Assembly (NCBI GenBank): GCA_945901025.1
Contig: CAMDJW010000016.1
Coordinates: 1 to 64,000, forward strand
Direction of reading: 5' to 3'
Origin: Spirosoma fluviale
Lineage (GTDB): Bacteria > Bacteroidota > Bacteroidia > Cytophagales > Spirosomataceae
DNA: 64,000 bases
A model generated the notes under the pieces. That model did no database searches. It was not told the origin of the DNA and saw only the letters and a list, made by a program, of their open reading frames with translations. A program made the position numbers and the translations under genes. Below are positions 43,331 to 51,873 of the stretch, one piece after another. How positions within the stretch are numbered: position 1 is the stretch's first letter; each line of letters starts with the position of its first letter.

Positions 43331-43358
43331 GAGGTCTAAGAAATTAGGCCTCTTTTTT
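43331..43358 (+). terminator. Terminator of gapA
   Basis: GAGGTCTAA (43331-43339), loop GAAA, TTAGGCCTC (43344-43352), then six T. One G-T pair. The 3' arm overlaps the trmB stop codon. Confidence 0.8.
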
Positions 43359-44009
43359 ATTTATAGCCCTTAGGTAATTGATCGGAAATCCCTTCTCATA
43401 GAAAATTTTCTCAAACCTTGTTTTGATTCCAAAATGATCTTTATTCCATGTTGATTCATATAGATCATTTGTGCTGGCGTTGATTTCAAATTTATTCGTT
43501 GGCAAACTATCCATGGAATATTCAAAAAATGGAGCGGAATCTGTTTTAAGGTGAAGAATTCCATCAGGCTTTAAGACCTTTTTGTATTTCTTTAAAAAAT
43601 TAGGGTGCGTTAATCTTTTTTTCTCGTCTCGATCTTTTGGTCGTGGATCAGGGAATGTAAGCCAAATTTCATCTACTTCGTTTTCTTCAAAAAAATCATC
43701 GATGAATTGCATCATGATTCGCAGGTATGCAACGTTGTTTAGGTTTTCTCGTTGGGCTACTAAACCTGCTGCTGCCAAACGATCCCCTTTAATGTCAACA
43801 CCAATAAAATTTTTGTCTAAAAATATTTTGGCTAATCCATTGGTATATTCACCCCTTCCACAACCTAATTCCAATACAATGGGATTGTCATTTAAAAATT
43901 GCTTCGAATTCCATTGTCCTTTTTGTTGGCCAAAATCAGGTTTTGTATGCTGAATGACATTATTTAATGTTTCAGCCCACTCATATTTTAAATTCTTATT
44001 TCTACCCAC
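43344..44009 (-). CDS. trmB: tRNA (guanine-N7)-methyltransferase
   Basis: A 221-residue SAM-dependent methyltransferase. SAM site: VLELGCGRGEYTNGLA at about 44-59, then NFIGVDIKGDRLAAAG; the TrmB signature is LTFPDPRPKDRDEKKRLTHPNFLKKYKKVLKPDGILHLKTDSAPFFEY. It methylates G46 of many tRNAs. Its ATG shares one base with the end of folC, and gapA lies beyond on the opposite strand, so folC-trmB form a short operon. Length is normal for the family. Confidence 0.95.
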   Translation of the reverse strand: MGRNKNLKYEWAETLNNVIQHTKPDFGQQKGQWNSKQFLNDNPIVLELGCGRGEYTNGLAKIFLDKNFIGVDIKGDRLAAAGLVAQRENLNNVAYLRIMMQFIDDFFEENEVDEIWLTFPDPRPKDRDEKKRLTHPNFLKKYKKVLKPDGILHLKTDSAPFFEYSMDSLPTNKFEINASTNDLYESTWNKDHFGIKTRFEKIFYEKGFPINYLRAINKKEA

Positions 44010-45313
44010 TAAATTATTTCGTCAATTTCTGCTATTAAATAGGTACTTCCTGTGATCAAGATTAAATCACCTTGATTCATTTTATTTTTGACATATGCGA
44101 TGGCTTCATTCACGTCCTCTATAACGGTTCCCATTAATCCATTTTTTTGAGCAATTGAAAATAAATTGGAAGCTTTTAGTGATCTCGGATTATGTGATTC
44201 ACAAAAGATATAACCTGCATTTTTCGGCAATAGTTGTAAAACTAAATCTAGGTCTTTATCGGCCACCATACCTAATATAATCCATAAATCACCGATTAAT
44301 TCGCTTTTTATCTGATCCATCAATAAACGAATACCACTTTCATTATGTGCCGTATCCGCGACTATTTTAGGATCATGACTAATCATTTCAAATCGGCCTT
44401 TTAATTGGGTATTTATCCGACTATTTTTTATGCCCAATTCAATCATATCCTTTTTAAAATCGATAATCCCCATGGAGGCCAATTGGCTACACCATGCCAA
44501 AACACCCATTATATTATTGATTTGATAGCTTCCTATATATGGACTGGTAATTTCGAATTTGCCGAAATGTTTACTTTCAACTTCTAAGTCTAGAGTCTGA
44601 CCCTTAGAAACCTTTATTAATGTAGTGTCCTCATTTGCAAATTGAATGGGAGCTTGATTTTCTTTCGCTTTCTCTAAAAAAATACCTGAAATTTCAGATT
44701 GAAATTCACTTATGGTCACAGGTGTATCTTGCTTAATTATTCCGGCTTTTTCGTTGGCAATTTCTTCTAATGAATTTCCTAAAATATCTTGATGATCATA
44801 CCCAATATTCGTAATTAAACATCCTAACGGCGTAATGATGTTGGTGGAATCTAGTCTTCCCCCTAATCCTGTTTCAATGATGGCCCAGTCCACTTGTTGT
44901 TCTTTAAAATAACAAAAAGCCATGGCGACGGTCCATTCAAAAAAGGATGGACTAACCTCCTGAATGATATTTTTTTTATCACTGACAAAGGTGCTAACCC
45001 ATTCTTTTGAAACCTCTATTCCGTTTATTTTAATTCTTTCTGTAAATGATTTTAAATGTGGTGAGGTATATAAACCTACCTTGAATCCATGTTCTTGTAA
45101 AATCGAAGCGATGAAATGAGAAGAACTTCCCTTTCCATTAGTTCCCGCTATATGCAAGGATTTAAATGAATGATGGGGATTATTTAATTGGGCACATAAT
45201 GTGGCTATGTTATCTAAACCCGGCTTATATGCTTTTTTACCTTCCCTATGAAATACAGGCAGGGAATTATATAGAAAATGGATTACCTCATCATAGGTCA
45301 TCTCTTTGGCCAA
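44009..45313 (-). CDS. folC: Bifunctional folylpolyglutamate/dihydrofolate synthase
   Basis: A 434-residue Mur-ligase-like enzyme. P-loop HIAGTNGKGSSSHFIASIL (about 56-74), the folate loop TSPHLKSFTERIKINGIEV, WAIIETGLGGRLDSTNIITP and NIGYDHQDILGNSLEEIANEKAGIIK; C-terminal GRFEMISHDPKIVADTAHNESG. It adds glutamate to dihydropteroate and tetrahydrofolate. Its ATG lies 6 bases after the stop of the TonB-like gene; it may share that transcript, or start a folC-trmB operon. Confidence 0.95.
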   Translation of the reverse strand: MAKEMTYDEVIHFLYNSLPVFHREGKKAYKPGLDNIATLCAQLNNPHHSFKSLHIAGTNGKGSSSHFIASILQEHGFKVGLYTSPHLKSFTERIKINGIEVSKEWVSTFVSDKKNIIQEVSPSFFEWTVAMAFCYFKEQQVDWAIIETGLGGRLDSTNIITPLGCLITNIGYDHQDILGNSLEEIANEKAGIIKQDTPVTISEFQSEISGIFLEKAKENQAPIQFANEDTTLIKVSKGQTLDLEVESKHFGKFEITSPYIGSYQINNIMGVLAWCSQLASMGIIDFKKDMIELGIKNSRINTQLKGRFEMISHDPKIVADTAHNESGIRLLMDQIKSELIGDLWIILGMVADKDLDLVLQLLPKNAGYIFCESHNPRSLKASNLFSIAQKNGLMGTVIEDVNEAIAYVKNKMNQGDLILITGSTYLIAEIDEII

Positions 45314-45319
45314 TAAGAA

Positions 45320-46096
45320 TTAATTGGTTGGAACTATTCGAATCGTTTTTAAGCCGCTGGCACCTTCCCTTTTTCCTTCATCTTTGGGCTGGAACTTGGC
45401 TCCCTTGATTGCTTTCTTGTATTTTTCAACAAGAGATAATTTTACATTCGTTTTTTCAATCCGAATTTCAGTCACAAGACCTTTTTCATTGACACGAATA
45501 AAGAATGTTATTTCACCGGTTTCATTTCCATTGTCTATCGAGCTGATGACTGAAGTGGGGAAAGTCCAGTTTTGAGCAATGGGCTTTTCACCAGCCCCTG
45601 ATCCACTGCCTCCCGACCCACTGCCATTTCCAGATCCAGTTCCTCCTCCAGATCCTCCTTTACCTAAACCAGTACCTGATCCAGAACCTGAGGATACTGA
45701 TTTTGTAGTTCTTTTTCCTAGAGTAAGGTTTAAATCGACCACAGGTTCTTCAGGAACCACTTCTTTTGGTGGCGGCACAACCGTTGTTTTTACAGTAACC
45801 GGACTTTCAACAGTGCTTGTAATTGGAGGAACGGTATTTTGTTGGACCACTTCGGTCTCCGATTGAATAATCTCTTTCTTTTCCTCTAATTTAGGACTTG
45901 GAGCCTCTTGCTCAAAAGAGATTTCTCCTTTTGATCCCTCAGGTTCAAGCAAAACGGGTGCATTCGGATTTTCATTCCAAATTTTTACTGACCAAATAAG
46001 CAAAAAAAGCAACCCATTGAATAAGATCGTAATAACCAATGCTTTAATTTGATTTTTAAGTTCTAATTCTCTTTGTGCTTGATAACTAACGTTCAT
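45320..46096 (-). CDS. TonB-like energy transducer
   Basis: A 258-residue protein. One membrane anchor near the N-terminus (about 18-38: ALVITILFNGLLFLLIWSV), a Pro/Glu/Val-rich periplasmic rod (EQEAPSPKLEEKKE..., TVVPPPKEVVPEEP), a Gly/Ser run of about 35 residues at roughly 135-172, and a compact C-terminal domain with EITFFIRVNEKGLVTEIRIEKTNVKLSLVEKYKKAIKGAKFQP that is the TonB C-terminal fold. It would couple inner-membrane energy (ExbBD-like, not in the window) to outer-membrane receptors. Only 1 base after the HU/SPOR gene: last member of a four-gene operon with an OMP and a giant TPR protein. Confidence 0.82.
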   Translation of the reverse strand: MNVSYQAQRELELKNQIKALVITILFNGLLFLLIWSVKIWNENPNAPVLLEPEGSKGEISFEQEAPSPKLEEKKEIIQSETEVVQQNTVPPITSTVESPVTVKTTVVPPPKEVVPEEPVVDLNLTLGKRTTKSVSSGSGSGTGLGKGGSGGGTGSGNGSGSGGSGSGAGEKPIAQNWTFPTSVISSIDNGNETGEITFFIRVNEKGLVTEIRIEKTNVKLSLVEKYKKAIKGAKFQPKDEGKREGASGLKTIRIVPTN

Positions 46097-46097
46097 A

Positions 46098-47126
46098 TTA
46101 ATCTTTTTTAAACACCCAAATGTCTATTTTTTTATCTCTTTTCAATTTGGCCGCTTCTGAATATGCCAAATCCATATTTTTTGCGCTACCCAAACTAATC
46201 CTAAAATAGGTTTCATTTTCTAACTTAGGTAAAATGGTAGCTTCCTGAAAACCCTTATGAACAAGTTCAGCTTTACCTAATTCCGTTTTTTCTAATGTTT
46301 TAAAACTAGCTGCCACTAAGAAAATGTGATCTGAAATCTCAATATTTTTTGAAACAATAACAGGTTCCAACGCTTCATTTTCCGATTTAACCTCATCTAT
46401 AACCTCTAAATTATTTGATTTAGAAGGTAAAAGGGCTTTTTTCGTTTTTAGAATTTTTACTTGCTTTTGTTCTTTTTTAATTCGTATTGTCAAAGGTGAA
46501 AATGAACTATTCACAAATTTTGAATTAGGTTCTGTTAAAATATATGCCCCCATTCCGCCAACGATAAACGCTAAAAGTATGTAAGCATAAAATTTCGATG
46601 TGATTCTTCTTGGCTGTTGCACTTCCTCAACCTCCTCTTTTGTCTGCATTGGAAGATCCTCAATAGATTTTTCAATCGGGGCCTCAACTAAAACTGGTTT
46701 TTTTCCAGCTCCTGTCGACACAGAATAAAGACCAAATTGGTCTAAATCATAATTAAACGTTTGATTAGGTTCAAAAACTAGTTTAGATTCTTCCGTTAAC
46801 GAGAAGGTCCCTAAATTTCCAAAGGCCAATGGCTCATTATTTTTTAAACCATCCTTCATTTCTTTTCCAAAAGCTGCTACTAATTCAAATGCCTTTTTTT
46901 GAGAAATCATATTTTGCTTTACAATATGCATCGCCAATATCCCATCATCTGATTTCAATCGTTCATTAAAAGCGATGGATTTTTTTCTTGGATGGATAAT
47001 AGCTTCTTTTTCGTCAAATTTAAAATCCTGAACATTGATCACAAATCCCCCAAAATTAGGTATAATCACACAATCATGCTCTAAAAGCAAGAATTCAATC
47101 GCCTGAATAAAATCTATATTTTGCAT
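46098..47126 (-). CDS. HU-domain/SPOR-domain membrane protein
   Basis: A 342-residue protein with three parts. Residues 1-125: HU-CCDC81-like module, in two halves (FIQAIEFLLLEHDCVIIPNFGGFVIN... and SQKKAFELVAAFGKEMKDGLKNNEPLAFGNLGTFSLTEESKLVFEP), the DNA-bending-protein-derived domain found in Bacteroidota. Then one membrane segment at about 185-203 (KFYAYILLAFIVGGMGAYIL). C-terminal 80 residues: SPOR domain (FLVAASFKTLEKTELGKAELVHKGFQEATILPKLENETYFRISLGSAKNMDLAYSEAAKLKRD), which binds denuded peptidoglycan at septa. So it may tether nucleoid or a filament inside to the septal wall. Third in the operon, between the OMP (2-base gap) and tonB-like gene. Confidence 0.88.
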   Translation of the reverse strand: MQNIDFIQAIEFLLLEHDCVIIPNFGGFVINVQDFKFDEKEAIIHPRKKSIAFNERLKSDDGILAMHIVKQNMISQKKAFELVAAFGKEMKDGLKNNEPLAFGNLGTFSLTEESKLVFEPNQTFNYDLDQFGLYSVSTGAGKKPVLVEAPIEKSIEDLPMQTKEEVEEVQQPRRITSKFYAYILLAFIVGGMGAYILTEPNSKFVNSSFSPLTIRIKKEQKQVKILKTKKALLPSKSNNLEVIDEVKSENEALEPVIVSKNIEISDHIFLVAASFKTLEKTELGKAELVHKGFQEATILPKLENETYFRISLGSAKNMDLAYSEAAKLKRDKKIDIWVFKKD

Positions 47127-47128
47127 AA

Positions 47129-48850
47129 CTAAAATGAATAAGCCACTCCCACTGTGTAATTTAAGCTTTGTTGAGGATAAAATAAATAGCGTTCATAACT
47201 TTTTCCTAAAATATTATTGGCACTGACAAATGCATTGAATTTTTTAGTGATTAAATAATTCACTTTTAAATTTAGGTCAACGATATCTGGCATCTTAATC
47301 GCCAGGCCATTTCGAGGATTAAATCCATATAAACCTCCTAAATAAAATACATCTGGCGAAACAATGATTCGGTCCTTAAATGTAATGGAGTTGGTAAATG
47401 ATAAATTCATGGCTGGCTTATGAAATGGCCTCTCCAACGTTTTTGAATTATCCACGATTAAATCCTCATAAGTATTGAAATCATATTTTAAGATGGATAA
47501 TATCTTGTCAAAAATTTGATAATTAATTTGACCTGATAAATTAACTACTTGTACCTTTTTATCACCCCCTGCATAAACTACATCAAAACGTGATGAATCA
47601 GCTTTTGTCGCCATAAAAAATCCTAAATTACTATATTCTGAATACCCAAATTTGATTTCAAAATCAAAGTTACGCTCATTAGAACCTTTGATACCACCAT
47701 AAATATTACTCGACTGAATGGTGTTTTTTAACGTGATATTATTGGCCATCCAATTATTTTCAGATACAAACTGATTCATCGAATTAAAATAAGTATCAGC
47801 ACCAAAGCCCGCAAAAATGTGAACAAAGTCTGTAGGTTTGATGTCTAATTTGACAGTAGGAAATAGTCTCGTTTGATTTATGGATAGATTTTTATCCTTT
47901 TCATTCGATATATTAATTCCAGCTGTTACGGACACGCGATTGTTTTTATAATTAAAACTAGGACGGATCCTATATAATTCACGTCGGTTATTCGTAGTGC
48001 TTGTGGTAATTTCAGATAAAACCATATCCCCATTCAAATAGGCGGAAATTTGATCTGTTACATGTAAAACTGACTGGATTTTACTCTCCCACATCCATTC
48101 TCTATTCTCAAAACTTGTCGACAAATAATTCAATCCAGATGTAGCCGTATAATCGTATTTGGCATCTTTTTGTGCATTTCCTATGCTACCCGAATAATAG
48201 AATTTGTTGTAGACAATATTTAAATCATTAAGATTTCCAGTGAATTTCTTTTCATCTCTTCCGTAAAAATTGGCTTCAGTTCTTTTAAAGCCAATAGAAC
48301 CGTCTAGTAAATAATTGCCAGTGAATGTTTTACTATATAGTTTAACCTCATTTTCATTTCGAGCAGAAAATGCAGTACCCACTGGCCCTCTTCTATTCGC
48401 ATCATGATTAATGTAAATACCTTGATACTGATTCTCTTTAGGAGAAAATCCAAAATGTCCATTGATTAACGTATGGCCATAATTACCTGCCCCTACCTTA
48501 ATCATATTTTTAAACTTGGGACCATAAGACGAAACTAATTCATCACCTTCTCTTGGGCCTATAATGGATGTCGTTAAAATAGCCGGACTTTTTACCTCCC
48601 ATTTTCTTTCAACAAAATCATATTTCATTTTTCTGCCTTTATTGGTATTCTCAACCTCCTCTAAAGCTTCGAAATTCCTAGATATTTCGGGTTTGAGTTC
48701 TATTTTACGCTCTTTTTCTAAAATAATATCATCATTCTGAATATTGCCCTCTTTTTTTTGCTGGCCATACACGATCGATTGCATACCTACTAGTATGAAC
48801 AATAAGCCGATGAATAATGTGGTCTTTTTGAGTTGGATTGTCATATTCAT
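47129..48850 (-). CDS. Outer-membrane beta-barrel protein, TonB-receptor-like
   Basis: A 573-residue protein with signal peptide (MNMTIQLKKTTLFIGLLFILVGMQSIVYGQQ). The chain after a short N-terminal region is a long series of beta hairpins with alternating aromatic residues (HTLINGHFGFSPKENQYQGIYINHDANRRGPVGTAF..., TFTGNYLLDGSIGFKRTEANFYGRDEKKFTGNLND), ending NNILGKSYERYLFYPQQSLNYTVGVAYSF: a C-terminal strand with terminal Phe as in TonB-dependent receptors. A plug domain is not evident, so it may be a plug-less barrel. It overlaps the end of the giant TPR gene by one base and is followed by the HU/SPOR gene. Confidence 0.8.
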   Translation of the reverse strand: MNMTIQLKKTTLFIGLLFILVGMQSIVYGQQKKEGNIQNDDIILEKERKIELKPEISRNFEALEEVENTNKGRKMKYDFVERKWEVKSPAILTTSIIGPREGDELVSSYGPKFKNMIKVGAGNYGHTLINGHFGFSPKENQYQGIYINHDANRRGPVGTAFSARNENEVKLYSKTFTGNYLLDGSIGFKRTEANFYGRDEKKFTGNLNDLNIVYNKFYYSGSIGNAQKDAKYDYTATSGLNYLSTSFENREWMWESKIQSVLHVTDQISAYLNGDMVLSEITTSTTNNRRELYRIRPSFNYKNNRVSVTAGINISNEKDKNLSINQTRLFPTVKLDIKPTDFVHIFAGFGADTYFNSMNQFVSENNWMANNITLKNTIQSSNIYGGIKGSNERNFDFEIKFGYSEYSNLGFFMATKADSSRFDVVYAGGDKKVQVVNLSGQINYQIFDKILSILKYDFNTYEDLIVDNSKTLERPFHKPAMNLSFTNSITFKDRIIVSPDVFYLGGLYGFNPRNGLAIKMPDIVDLNLKVNYLITKKFNAFVSANNILGKSYERYLFYPQQSLNYTVGVAYSF

Positions 48851-51800
48851 TACTTAATGGGTAGACTTTTTAATTTGTTTTTGGCTAATTCGATGACCGA
48901 CGTATCACTTGAATTGTCGATGACCGATTTTAAAATGGCCTTAGCCTGAGGCAAATTCTTTAAGGAAACAAAGTTTTCTGCTAATAGAATGTATGATTTA
49001 CCGATCACCGCATCAGACGCTTCCGCAAATTCATTTTTGAACTTGGTCGTAATCATATCGTTTGACTCCTTAAACTTGCCTTCACCACTTAATAATAAGG
49101 CTAATTCATATTGCGCTTCCGCTCCTATTTCATTTTTATCTAGGGTGATTACTTTGGCTAACCATTGTCTTTTAGATGCAATCTGGGTTGAATCACTGCT
49201 AAACATATCGGCTAATGAGCGGGTCAACTTAGCTTTTTCTTCTTTTGTAATGTTGGCTAATGGTTCTAATTCGTTTAATAATGTAGCAATGGAATCCACA
49301 TTTTTAGCTTCATACGTAATAGCAATGATTTTATTCATAGCCATCGTTTGTTGGTCTACCTCAGTATTTTTCGACTTAAACAATCGGTAAAAATGAATAG
49401 ACTCTGAATATTTTTTTTGTCCATATGATAATTCAGCAGCCCTCAAAATAACTTTATTTACCTGTGGGTGTTCATTTTGATCCATTACTTTTTGATAATA
49501 TTGAATGGCAGTTAATGTATCATTTATTTGGTCTGCTGCATCTGCTACTAGGTAATTAGCCTCTACAATATTTTCATTAGAGGGATACTTGGCAATAAAA
49601 TCTTTTAATGAACTAATGGCTTTGTCAAATTTCTTTCCTTCATATATAGCTCTTGCCGCTCCATATTTTAAATCGATGGCATCATTTTCAGACTCTGATT
49701 TGTTGGTATTTTGATAGGTGTCTAGCACTTGGCCAAATTCCTCTGGCTTGCCTACTTTAATTAAGTTCTCTTGAAGGCCAACTAAAGCATCTTTAGCGAT
49801 TTTCTCTGTCGTAAATTCATTGACGATTCTCTTATAATCTTGGATAGCCAAATCGAATTTATCACTATTCGTATAGGATTGAGCTCTTTTAAATATTGCT
49901 TGAGCTAAAAATTCACTGGCTTTGCTTGCAGAAATTATTTCCGTGAATCCAAGTATGGCTTCTGAATATTTAGCGGCATTGAACAAAATTAAATTCTCTT
50001 GATAAAATGCTTCATCCGCAAATTTAGAATCTGGAAAACCTAGTCTTACTTGTTTCATCGAAGCCCTAGCCTCATTTCCCCGATTTAAGTAAATAAGCGT
50101 CATACCCTTTTGAAACAAGGCATAATCTTTTTCCGTTTTTGCGATATCAGCTGCCTGGCTATAATAATTTAAAGCATCTTCATATTTTCGAGAAACCAAA
50201 TAAGTATCAGCAAGCCTCAATAAAATGGTTGGATTATTTTTAGCATTTGGCGTCAGCTTTAAACGATCTACATATGTCTTAAATAACGTGTTTGCTTTAC
50301 TAAATTCCTTTGTGTTGAAATATGCGAAGGCTAAACCAATTCTAATCTTCTGTACAAACTCTACTGTTTTATTAGAATTTGACATTAAAGGCGTATAAAT
50401 TTGAATGGCTTCTTCAAACTTCTTTTGCACAGATAATGCTTCTGCTTTCCCTAATAAAGCCTTTAGTTTTATATCTTCTTTTTCAGCGACTAAAATAGCC
50501 TCGTCGAAAAATTTTATTGCTGGTTCAAATTGGTTGTCATTATAGGACCTAACACCTAAATTATACGATAAGGTCTGATAGGCTAAATTGAGCTTAGGTG
50601 ACCGATTGCTAATGCCTTTTAAATAATTAACAGCCACCTCTAAATTATCAGAATTAATAAATGCATCAGCAACTAATTCAATAGCTTCCTCCGCATACTT
50701 GCTTTTCGGAAATTTAGCATTGAAGGCTTGTATCTCATTGATCGTTTCTGACCCTTTTCCTAAATCCAATAATACTTTGGCATAATTAAAATAGGCATCT
50801 TCTTGAATCGCTGGATTGAATGATAAACTTCTAGCTACCTGAAAAGCATCTAAAGTAGCCACTAAATTTCCCGCACTTAATTGGGCTAAAGCCGTAGTAA
50901 ATGCTGCATATTGGCCTAAAGAGTCCTTTTTGGCTACCAATTCTTTTAAGGTAACTGTGGCCTCATTGTATTTTTTTGTCTTAAAAAGAGAAAACCCGTA
51001 TCGATATTGAGATAGAGGGCTGAACTTGGAACCCGTCATTTTTCCAAATGCCTCATAACTTTTTATCGATTTTTCGAATTGATTTAACTGAAATTGTACA
51101 TCAGCGACCAACAAGGCTAATTCATCTAATCGGTATCCTGTATTCTTCTTAGCAATGATAGGTTCTGCATATTTTAATAATTCGGAGAATTTAGACTGAT
51201 TGAAATAACATAAACCGATCCAATTAGGGATCTCTTTTCTGTATTTACTACTTGCTTCTGCTTTGGCAAAATCGACCGCTGCCTCTCCATATCTTTTCTC
51301 ACCAAAATTAATCACTCCTGCATAATAGGAAGCGGAAAGCGCATATTCCTCCTCAGGCTCCACTTTAATTTCATTAAATACAGGTAGGGCTTCTAAATAT
51401 TTCTTTAGTTCAAAATAAGAAATGGCTAATTTGAATTTGGCTTCTAAATTAGTTTCAGAGGATCTACTTAAGTATTTTATCGCTTTGGCATAATCTCCAT
51501 TATCATAAAAAAATGTTCCAATACCCCTTAATAATTTAACGGCCTGTGGATGTTCTGGATTATTTGCAATAAATCGTTCCGCTAAAATTTCCGCCTCAGG
51601 TTGACTCATGTACAATGAGCACATCGTCATGTAATATTCGGCTAATACCTTTTGACCCGATTGCTCATTACTTAATGGTTCAAGACTTCCTAAATATGCG
51701 GAAAATTCTTCTCGAGCCGCTACATAGTTTTTTGAATCAAAGTATTCCTTTGCTTGTCTGAAATGTAGGGTGTGATCTTTGAAACTTAATGTTTGCTGGG

Positions 51801-51873
51801 CTATGGAGCCAAAAGAAATAAAAAAAAGTAGTATGAAGGGCAGCCAGCCAATGGGTGTATTTTTCAATTTCAT
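48850..51873 (-). CDS. Giant periplasmic TPR protein
   Basis: A 1007-residue protein, signal peptide 1-25 (MKLKNTPIGWLPFILLFFISFGSIAQ). The rest is a solenoid of about 25 TPR-like helical pairs, including RQAKEYFDSKNYVAAREEFSAYLG, YDNGDYAKAIKYLSRSSETNLEAKFKLAISYFELKKYLEALPVFNE and RIGLAFAYFNTKEFSKANTLFKTYVDRL; spacing is that of the YbgF/BamD-like TPRs. It has no catalytic domain. It starts the four-gene operon (TPR, barrel, HU/SPOR, TonB-like), pointing to a scaffold that joins an outer-membrane protein to the cell wall and inner membrane. A TATTTTTG box lies 30 bases before the ATG. No function is known to me. Confidence 0.85.
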   Translation of the reverse strand: MKLKNTPIGWLPFILLFFISFGSIAQQTLSFKDHTLHFRQAKEYFDSKNYVAAREEFSAYLGSLEPLSNEQSGQKVLAEYYMTMCSLYMSQPEAEILAERFIANNPEHPQAVKLLRGIGTFFYDNGDYAKAIKYLSRSSETNLEAKFKLAISYFELKKYLEALPVFNEIKVEPEEEYALSASYYAGVINFGEKRYGEAAVDFAKAEASSKYRKEIPNWIGLCYFNQSKFSELLKYAEPIIAKKNTGYRLDELALLVADVQFQLNQFEKSIKSYEAFGKMTGSKFSPLSQYRYGFSLFKTKKYNEATVTLKELVAKKDSLGQYAAFTTALAQLSAGNLVATLDAFQVARSLSFNPAIQEDAYFNYAKVLLDLGKGSETINEIQAFNAKFPKSKYAEEAIELVADAFINSDNLEVAVNYLKGISNRSPKLNLAYQTLSYNLGVRSYNDNQFEPAIKFFDEAILVAEKEDIKLKALLGKAEALSVQKKFEEAIQIYTPLMSNSNKTVEFVQKIRIGLAFAYFNTKEFSKANTLFKTYVDRLKLTPNAKNNPTILLRLADTYLVSRKYEDALNYYSQAADIAKTEKDYALFQKGMTLIYLNRGNEARASMKQVRLGFPDSKFADEAFYQENLILFNAAKYSEAILGFTEIISASKASEFLAQAIFKRAQSYTNSDKFDLAIQDYKRIVNEFTTEKIAKDALVGLQENLIKVGKPEEFGQVLDTYQNTNKSESENDAIDLKYGAARAIYEGKKFDKAISSLKDFIAKYPSNENIVEANYLVADAADQINDTLTAIQYYQKVMDQNEHPQVNKVILRAAELSYGQKKYSESIHFYRLFKSKNTEVDQQTMAMNKIIAITYEAKNVDSIATLLNELEPLANITKEEKAKLTRSLADMFSSDSTQIASKRQWLAKVITLDKNEIGAEAQYELALLLSGEGKFKESNDMITTKFKNEFAEASDAVIGKSYILLAENFVSLKNLPQAKAILKSVIDNSSDTSVIELAKNKLKSLPIK

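Follow-up and report, generated by a model that had tools for sequence, protein, structure and literature searches.

Four closely packed envelope genes in the stretch of Spirosoma fluviale DNA analysed here (64,000 nucleotides, the window) are quite probably part of a dedicated six-part, proton-driven machine that spans the cell envelope. The six parts would be an ExbB and an ExbD, which form the motor, a TonB-like arm, an HU-membrane-SPOR protein, a periplasmic TPR solenoid and a plug-less outer-membrane barrel. At the level of sequence, this reading is based on the composition of the set, on the operon and its modules found over the phylum, on the grouping of an ExbB from contig C11 of the same genome with ExbBs of the operon, and on tiny genomes that keep the motor, the arm and the SPOR protein and in which no TonB receptor could be detected. 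Most likely the machine transduces force and couples the outer membrane and the peptidoglycan, probably at division. As an explanation of all observations together, a six-part machine coupling the outer membrane to the cell wall in the manner of Tol-Pal is the best available, and is held with middling confidence.

The packed envelope genes of the window

The preliminary description had placed four tightly packed envelope genes at positions 45320-51873, and the open reading frames were confirmed there, all on the minus strand. The TPR and barrel genes overlap by 1 base, the barrel and HU/SPOR genes are separated by 2 bases, and the HU/SPOR and TonB-like genes by 1 base. The run continues with folC, which starts 6 bases past the TonB-like gene, and trmB, which overlaps folC by 1 base. 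The features are as follows.

48850-51873, minus: TPR solenoid, 1007 aa, with signal peptide, expected to be periplasmic (Pfam TPR families, NCBIfam TPR models, all-helical model)
47129-48850, minus: plug-less outer-membrane barrel, 573 aa, with signal peptide (family profile matches the TonB receptor C-terminal part only)
48515-48763, minus: stretch of the barrel protein that follows its signal peptide (about residues 30-112), a possible docking site (residues common across the alignment)
46098-47126, minus: HU-membrane-SPOR protein, 342 aa (Pfam, family matches, hydropathy)
46737-47108, minus: two HU-CCDC81 domains, residues 7-130, expected to be cytosolic (PF18174, PF18175)
46536-46592, minus: membrane segment of the HU/SPOR protein, about residues 179-197 (hydropathy scan)
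46107-46325, minus: SPOR-like C-terminal domain, about residues 268-340 (homology to loci L043 and L048)
45320-46096, minus: putative TonB-like force transducer, 258 aa (weak TonB_C-like end, membrane segment)
44009-45313, minus: folC, next in the run, often 3' of TonB in relatives
43344-44009, minus: trmB, putative tRNA methyltransferase, end of the run (Methyltransf_4, 3.2e-35)

The 1007-residue protein matches many TPR families in Pfam, and its shallow AlphaFold model is wholly helical, with 54 helices and a mean pLDDT of 69. In NCBIfam it passed the YbgF model with 142.7 bits (cut-off 90.1) and matched several TPR models as well, whereas its score for CpoB PRK10803 was 22.9 bits, far below the cut-off of 383. 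Its TPR matches are generic. An assignment to PorW/SprE of the T9SS was ruled out, as NF052312 gave 58.7 bits against a cut-off of 250. At one locus (L053) three TPR genes stand in tandem 5' of the barrel, and at another a DNA polymerase III delta gene lies directly 5' of the TPR gene (L085:12735-13757); genes of similar size, identified by size only, occupy that position in several other loci.

The barrel had been described as lacking a plug, and this held for the family: none of 30 members matched the Plug domain or the TonB-receptor barrel domain (Pfam, E<=0.01), which argues against an ordinary TonB receptor. The family profile matched solved TonB receptors in the last third only (31 distinct sequences), and its match to one ordinary receptor covered 195 columns, all C-terminal. 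An AlphaFold model of the barrel from eight near-identical rows had a pLDDT of 27. The barrel is best read as receptor-derived and without a plug. The genome carries a second TPR-barrel pair (L042, contig C5:36842-38488) with no adjoining HU/SPOR or motor genes, and G086 of the same genus also has a second pair (L044). A search for relatives in viral contigs found none.

For the third protein an architecture of HU domain, transmembrane segment and SPOR domain had been suggested. Its HU domains (Pfam PF18174, 1.1e-18, and PF18175, 2.3e-15) and its single hydrophobic segment, starting at residue 179 in the hydropathy scan, were recovered in the window copy, but SPOR had no Pfam match there at E<=0.1 and emerged from the family, in which 30 of 36 members match it (E<=0.01). 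The L043 copy, 48% identical to that of the window, reached only 0.031 for SPOR, under the cut-off, and the L048 copy 8.6e-10; the member from family f24 (L117) had no SPOR match. A search of the PDB with the HU/SPOR protein returned two weak matches only (best E 0.062).

The TonB-like protein has a membrane segment from about residue 19, a proline- and glycine-rich middle part and a TonB_C-like end. The TonB C-terminal domain scored 0.035 in Pfam and 0.0083 in NCBIfam for the window copy, both under the cut-off, and was found in one of 17 members from the order (E<=0.01); it exceeded the cut-off in four of seven more distant members (L134, L138, L141, L143). The TonB-like profile matched 118 of 296 phylum genomes. 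As in the window, folC adjoins the TonB-like gene in most of L150-L156 and L158, even though the remaining set is elsewhere; at L157, a locus that ends at a contig end, folC was not seen beside the TonB-like gene.

Gene order and the ExbB-ExbD motor in relatives

Conservation was assessed at 60 loci of the window's order, selected among the barrel hits so as to cover different families; two or more are second copies, and some end at contig ends. TPR and HU/SPOR genes were counted within two genes of the barrel and other genes within six. HU/SPOR stood 3' of the barrel in 47 of the 60 loci and a TPR gene 5' of it in 42, with TonB nearby in 30, ExbB in 27, ExbD in 22 and folC in 21. The linkage of the barrel, HU/SPOR and TPR genes in the order is thus more than chance. 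Among 40 phylum loci, a set that includes one ordinary receptor (L145), the TPR gene was found 5' in 34, HU/SPOR 3' in 22 and TonB in 16. TPR, HU/SPOR, ExbB, ExbD and TonB all accompanied the barrel in 21 of the 60 order loci and in 5 of the 40 phylum loci, as they do at L175, L176 and L178 of family f8. The distant families f42, f49 and f53 have the barrel, HU/SPOR, ExbB, ExbD and TonB in one row.

Elsewhere the set is divided. Family f26 has it split into a TPR-barrel pair, a lone HU/SPOR gene and an ExbB-ExbD-TonB-folC group (L150-L152), with L149 rearranged; TonB-folC is apart from the rest in f24, and across f24-f30 parts of the set stand apart. TPR-barrel pairs with no other gene of the set adjoining occur at L118-L130. 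To judge from these loci, the set extends over the phylum, forming a single operon in some of the distant families and lying in two or three pieces in others. The expectation that the four genes stay together across Bacteroidota therefore stands for the run in some distant families and for the pieces that are kept, and fails where f26 and f24 place them in two or three locations. The same scattering counts against the trans-envelope machine proposed in the preliminary description, whereas the reach of the set into distant families and the presence of ExbB-ExbD in it in many relatives speak for that machine.

Of 296 phylum genomes, 212 had a match to the barrel profile built from the order (E<=1e-3) and 266 to a wider profile (E<=1e-6), both counts being upper bounds because ordinary receptors are included. 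A first barrel search had no match in 21 of 118 genomes. When the wider profile was applied to 20 of these 21, alongside four f21 genomes, 11 of the 20 matched at E<=1e-6 and nine did not; eight of the rescued barrels reached E<=1e-20 (that of G066 over the C-terminal half only), the G038 barrel was partial, and G056 and G111 came only near 1e-6.

In many relatives from many families, ExbB and ExbD genes are inserted between the SPOR and TonB-like genes. Their identity was confirmed by Pfam at all three loci tested (L057, L065, L085), with families, MotA/TolQ/ExbB and ExbD/TolR, that do not separate Tol from Exb. ExbB and ExbD are absent from the run at the window locus and in its f1 relatives L043, L045, L047 and L048. 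The genome has ExbB in two other places, an ExbB-ExbD-ExbD-TonB group on contig C12 and an ExbB-ExbD pair on C11, which matches the same two Pfam families. The C11 ExbB scored about 162-197 bits against most full-length operon ExbBs, versus about 45-85 for the C12 ExbB, and the operon ExbB profile gave 283 bits for C11 and 195 for C12. In a tree of ExbB sequences, the C11 protein, on a long branch, grouped in one clade with 11 ExbBs from other genomes (support 98/92), and the C12 protein lay far off on a branch of 5.45, joined to the operon ExbB of L135 across a long branch; the two canonical ExbBs in this tree did not group together. Because the C11 ExbB scores and groups with operon ExbBs, the motor appears to have moved out of the run, and the C11 ExbB-ExbD pair is probably the motor of the window set.

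Small genomes and alternative readings

One MotA/ExbB match was found in each of six f21 genomes, which measure 0.7-1.2 Mb and are 95-99% complete. In five of them this single ExbB lies inside an HU/SPOR-ExbB-ExbD-TonB row, and the five proteins cluster as one clade (100/99) nested among the operon ExbBs; the placement of the G094 ExbB is unsure. No Plug domain was detected in any of the six, although diverged plugs could be missed; six comparison genomes contained 35, 100, 18, 13, 71 and 83. The barrel was found in four of the small genomes and in part in a fifth (G038), and a TPR gene stands near it in two and was unrecognised beside it in two others. Since no Plug was detectable, the persistence of the motor there is hardly accounted for by ordinary nutrient import, and the small genomes argue for a client other than ordinary receptors and suggest that the motor does something besides import. 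The smallest genome (G094, 0.7 Mb; L174) keeps an ExbB-like gene; the other parts were unrecognised beside it, and no barrel was found.

The main rival to the six-part machine, though an unlikely one, is an energised outer-membrane exporter, in which a TPR scaffold and the plug-less barrel export surface lipoproteins, glycans or lipids, driven by ExbBD-TonB. Known exporters such as AlgK-AlgE, PgaA and Slam share the TPR-plus-barrel layout, the window TPR protein weakly matches TPR_Slam (Pfam, 2.3e-07, under the cut-off) and PgaA (NCBIfam, 0.037, far under it), and the pairs that stand alone at L118-L130, as well as the second pair of the same genome, would fit an exporter. However, the three flanking genes scanned (folC, trmB and an M61 peptidase) are not glycan genes, an exporter leaves no clear place for SPOR and HU, and persistence in genomes near 1 Mb in size agrees with a housekeeping role, although surface export could itself be such a role.

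It is less probable still that ExbBD-TonB is an auxiliary Ton system serving ordinary TonB receptors, with the TPR, barrel and SPOR genes as mere neighbours. Motor and arm are of Ton type, and TonB goes with folC, away from the TPR-barrel pair, in f26 and f24. According to the available part of one report, exbB-exbD-tonB1 of Riemerella anatipestifer can be deleted and its TonB1 shares hemin uptake with TonB2 (PMC4446302); this may be the same motor as that of the set described here, in which case its dispensability would also count against the six-part machine. Against such a role stand the six f21 genomes with one ExbB and no detectable Plug, the barrel family that lacks a plug in all 30 members and the conservation of the run in distant families. 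Finally, a tether that anchors the nucleoid at the division site and works through HU is very improbable. The window protein has two HU-CCDC81 domains, and such domains occur in 29 of the 36 family members, but the proteins of L082, L134, L169 and L171 (families f19, f49, f21), which keep SPOR matches, gave no HU match at E<=0.1, and a tether requires neither motor nor barrel. The earlier suggestion of a link to chromosome position is weakened by the same four loci, as loss of the HU domain in some lineages implies that the core role is something other than positioning the chromosome. The HU-CCDC81 family was found in 67 of 296 phylum genomes.

Relation to Tol-Pal and other envelope systems

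For the six-part machine, Tol-Pal (TolQ-TolR-TolA-TolB-Pal-CpoB) would be the nearest known mechanism. The two resemble each other in a proton motor of TolQ/ExbB and TolR/ExbD type, a force arm with one membrane span, a TPR protein expected in the periplasm and, in many genomes, a single operon. Unlike Tol-Pal, the run has no TolB or Pal and has the plug-less barrel and the SPOR protein instead; CpoB is also far smaller than the TPR protein of about 1000 aa. Pfam gave no Pal lipoprotein match for any of the run's six genes and, with TolB absent too, the set was not classed as a member of Tol-Pal. A Tol-Pal-like role, argued by analogy, is a plausible reading that falls a little short of an even chance. 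The Ton system (ExbB-ExbD-TonB with TonB-dependent transporters) has motor and arm families in common with the set, and the barrel resembles the C-terminal part of its receptors, but the set lacks a plug, has recurrent TPR and SPOR neighbours and keeps its motor in genomes without detectable Plug domains. SPOR proteins of the FtsN/DamX type consist of a cytosolic part, one membrane segment and a C-terminal SPOR domain, an architecture common to the HU/SPOR family, which differs in its cytosolic HU domains and in sharing its locus with the barrel gene and, for many relatives, with motor genes.

In the proposed mechanism, the ExbBD motor would drive the TonB-like arm to pull against the TPR protein and the barrel, engaging either the N-terminal part of the barrel or the TPR protein itself, and SPOR would hold the assembly at denuded septal peptidoglycan. 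The force would couple the outer membrane to the cell wall during constriction, as in Tol-Pal but with other outer-membrane parts. It is the SPOR domain and the resemblance to Tol-Pal that suggest the machine may act at division. A more tentative proposal is that an energised system linking the outer membrane to the cell wall, with ExbBD and a TonB-like arm working on the plug-less, receptor-derived barrel and the giant TPR protein and with a SPOR protein positioning them at the septum, is ancestral to the phylum and replaced Tol-Pal. In Bacteroidota, constriction and stabilisation of the outer membrane proceed with no Tol-Pal locus recognised, and the gene set gives testable candidates for this task.

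A 2025 survey, in its available portion, reports no identifiable Tol-Pal loci in Bacteroidetes, describes putative TolB-Pal fusions, proposes PorE as a tether between the outer membrane and the peptidoglycan in this group, and states that further such systems are still to be revealed (PMC12204202). As a proposed tether, PorE would address the same gap as the present set, but it is a single fused lipoprotein with CpoB-, TolB- and Pal-like parts (PMC12204202), whereas the present set consists of separate genes with a motor of their own. The BAM complex of Bacteroidota is likewise specific to the phylum and includes an additional outer-membrane protein; the accessible text gives its BamG as a FadL-type 14-strand protein and describes a depletion system in Flavobacterium johnsoniae (PMC12611786). 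BamG was ruled out as the identity of the present barrel, whose similarity is to the C-terminal portion of TonB receptors. No title among the open PMC papers listed as matches names the gene set.

TolB_N had no match in the genome of the window. It occurs in 20 of 296 genomes, in none of the 12 from the window's order and in 11 of family f36; the named control, Bacteroides ihuae, scored above the cut-off. Barrel hits in f36 are weak or absent, the best among the matches listed being 5.2e-20, and L145, the f36 hit examined more closely, proved to be a plug-bearing ordinary receptor. The complementarity between TolB_N and the barrel is mostly due to this one family. TolB_N and a clear barrel hit occur together in G345, G350, G286 and G163, the last with TolB_N below the cut-off, and thus the two are not strictly exclusive.
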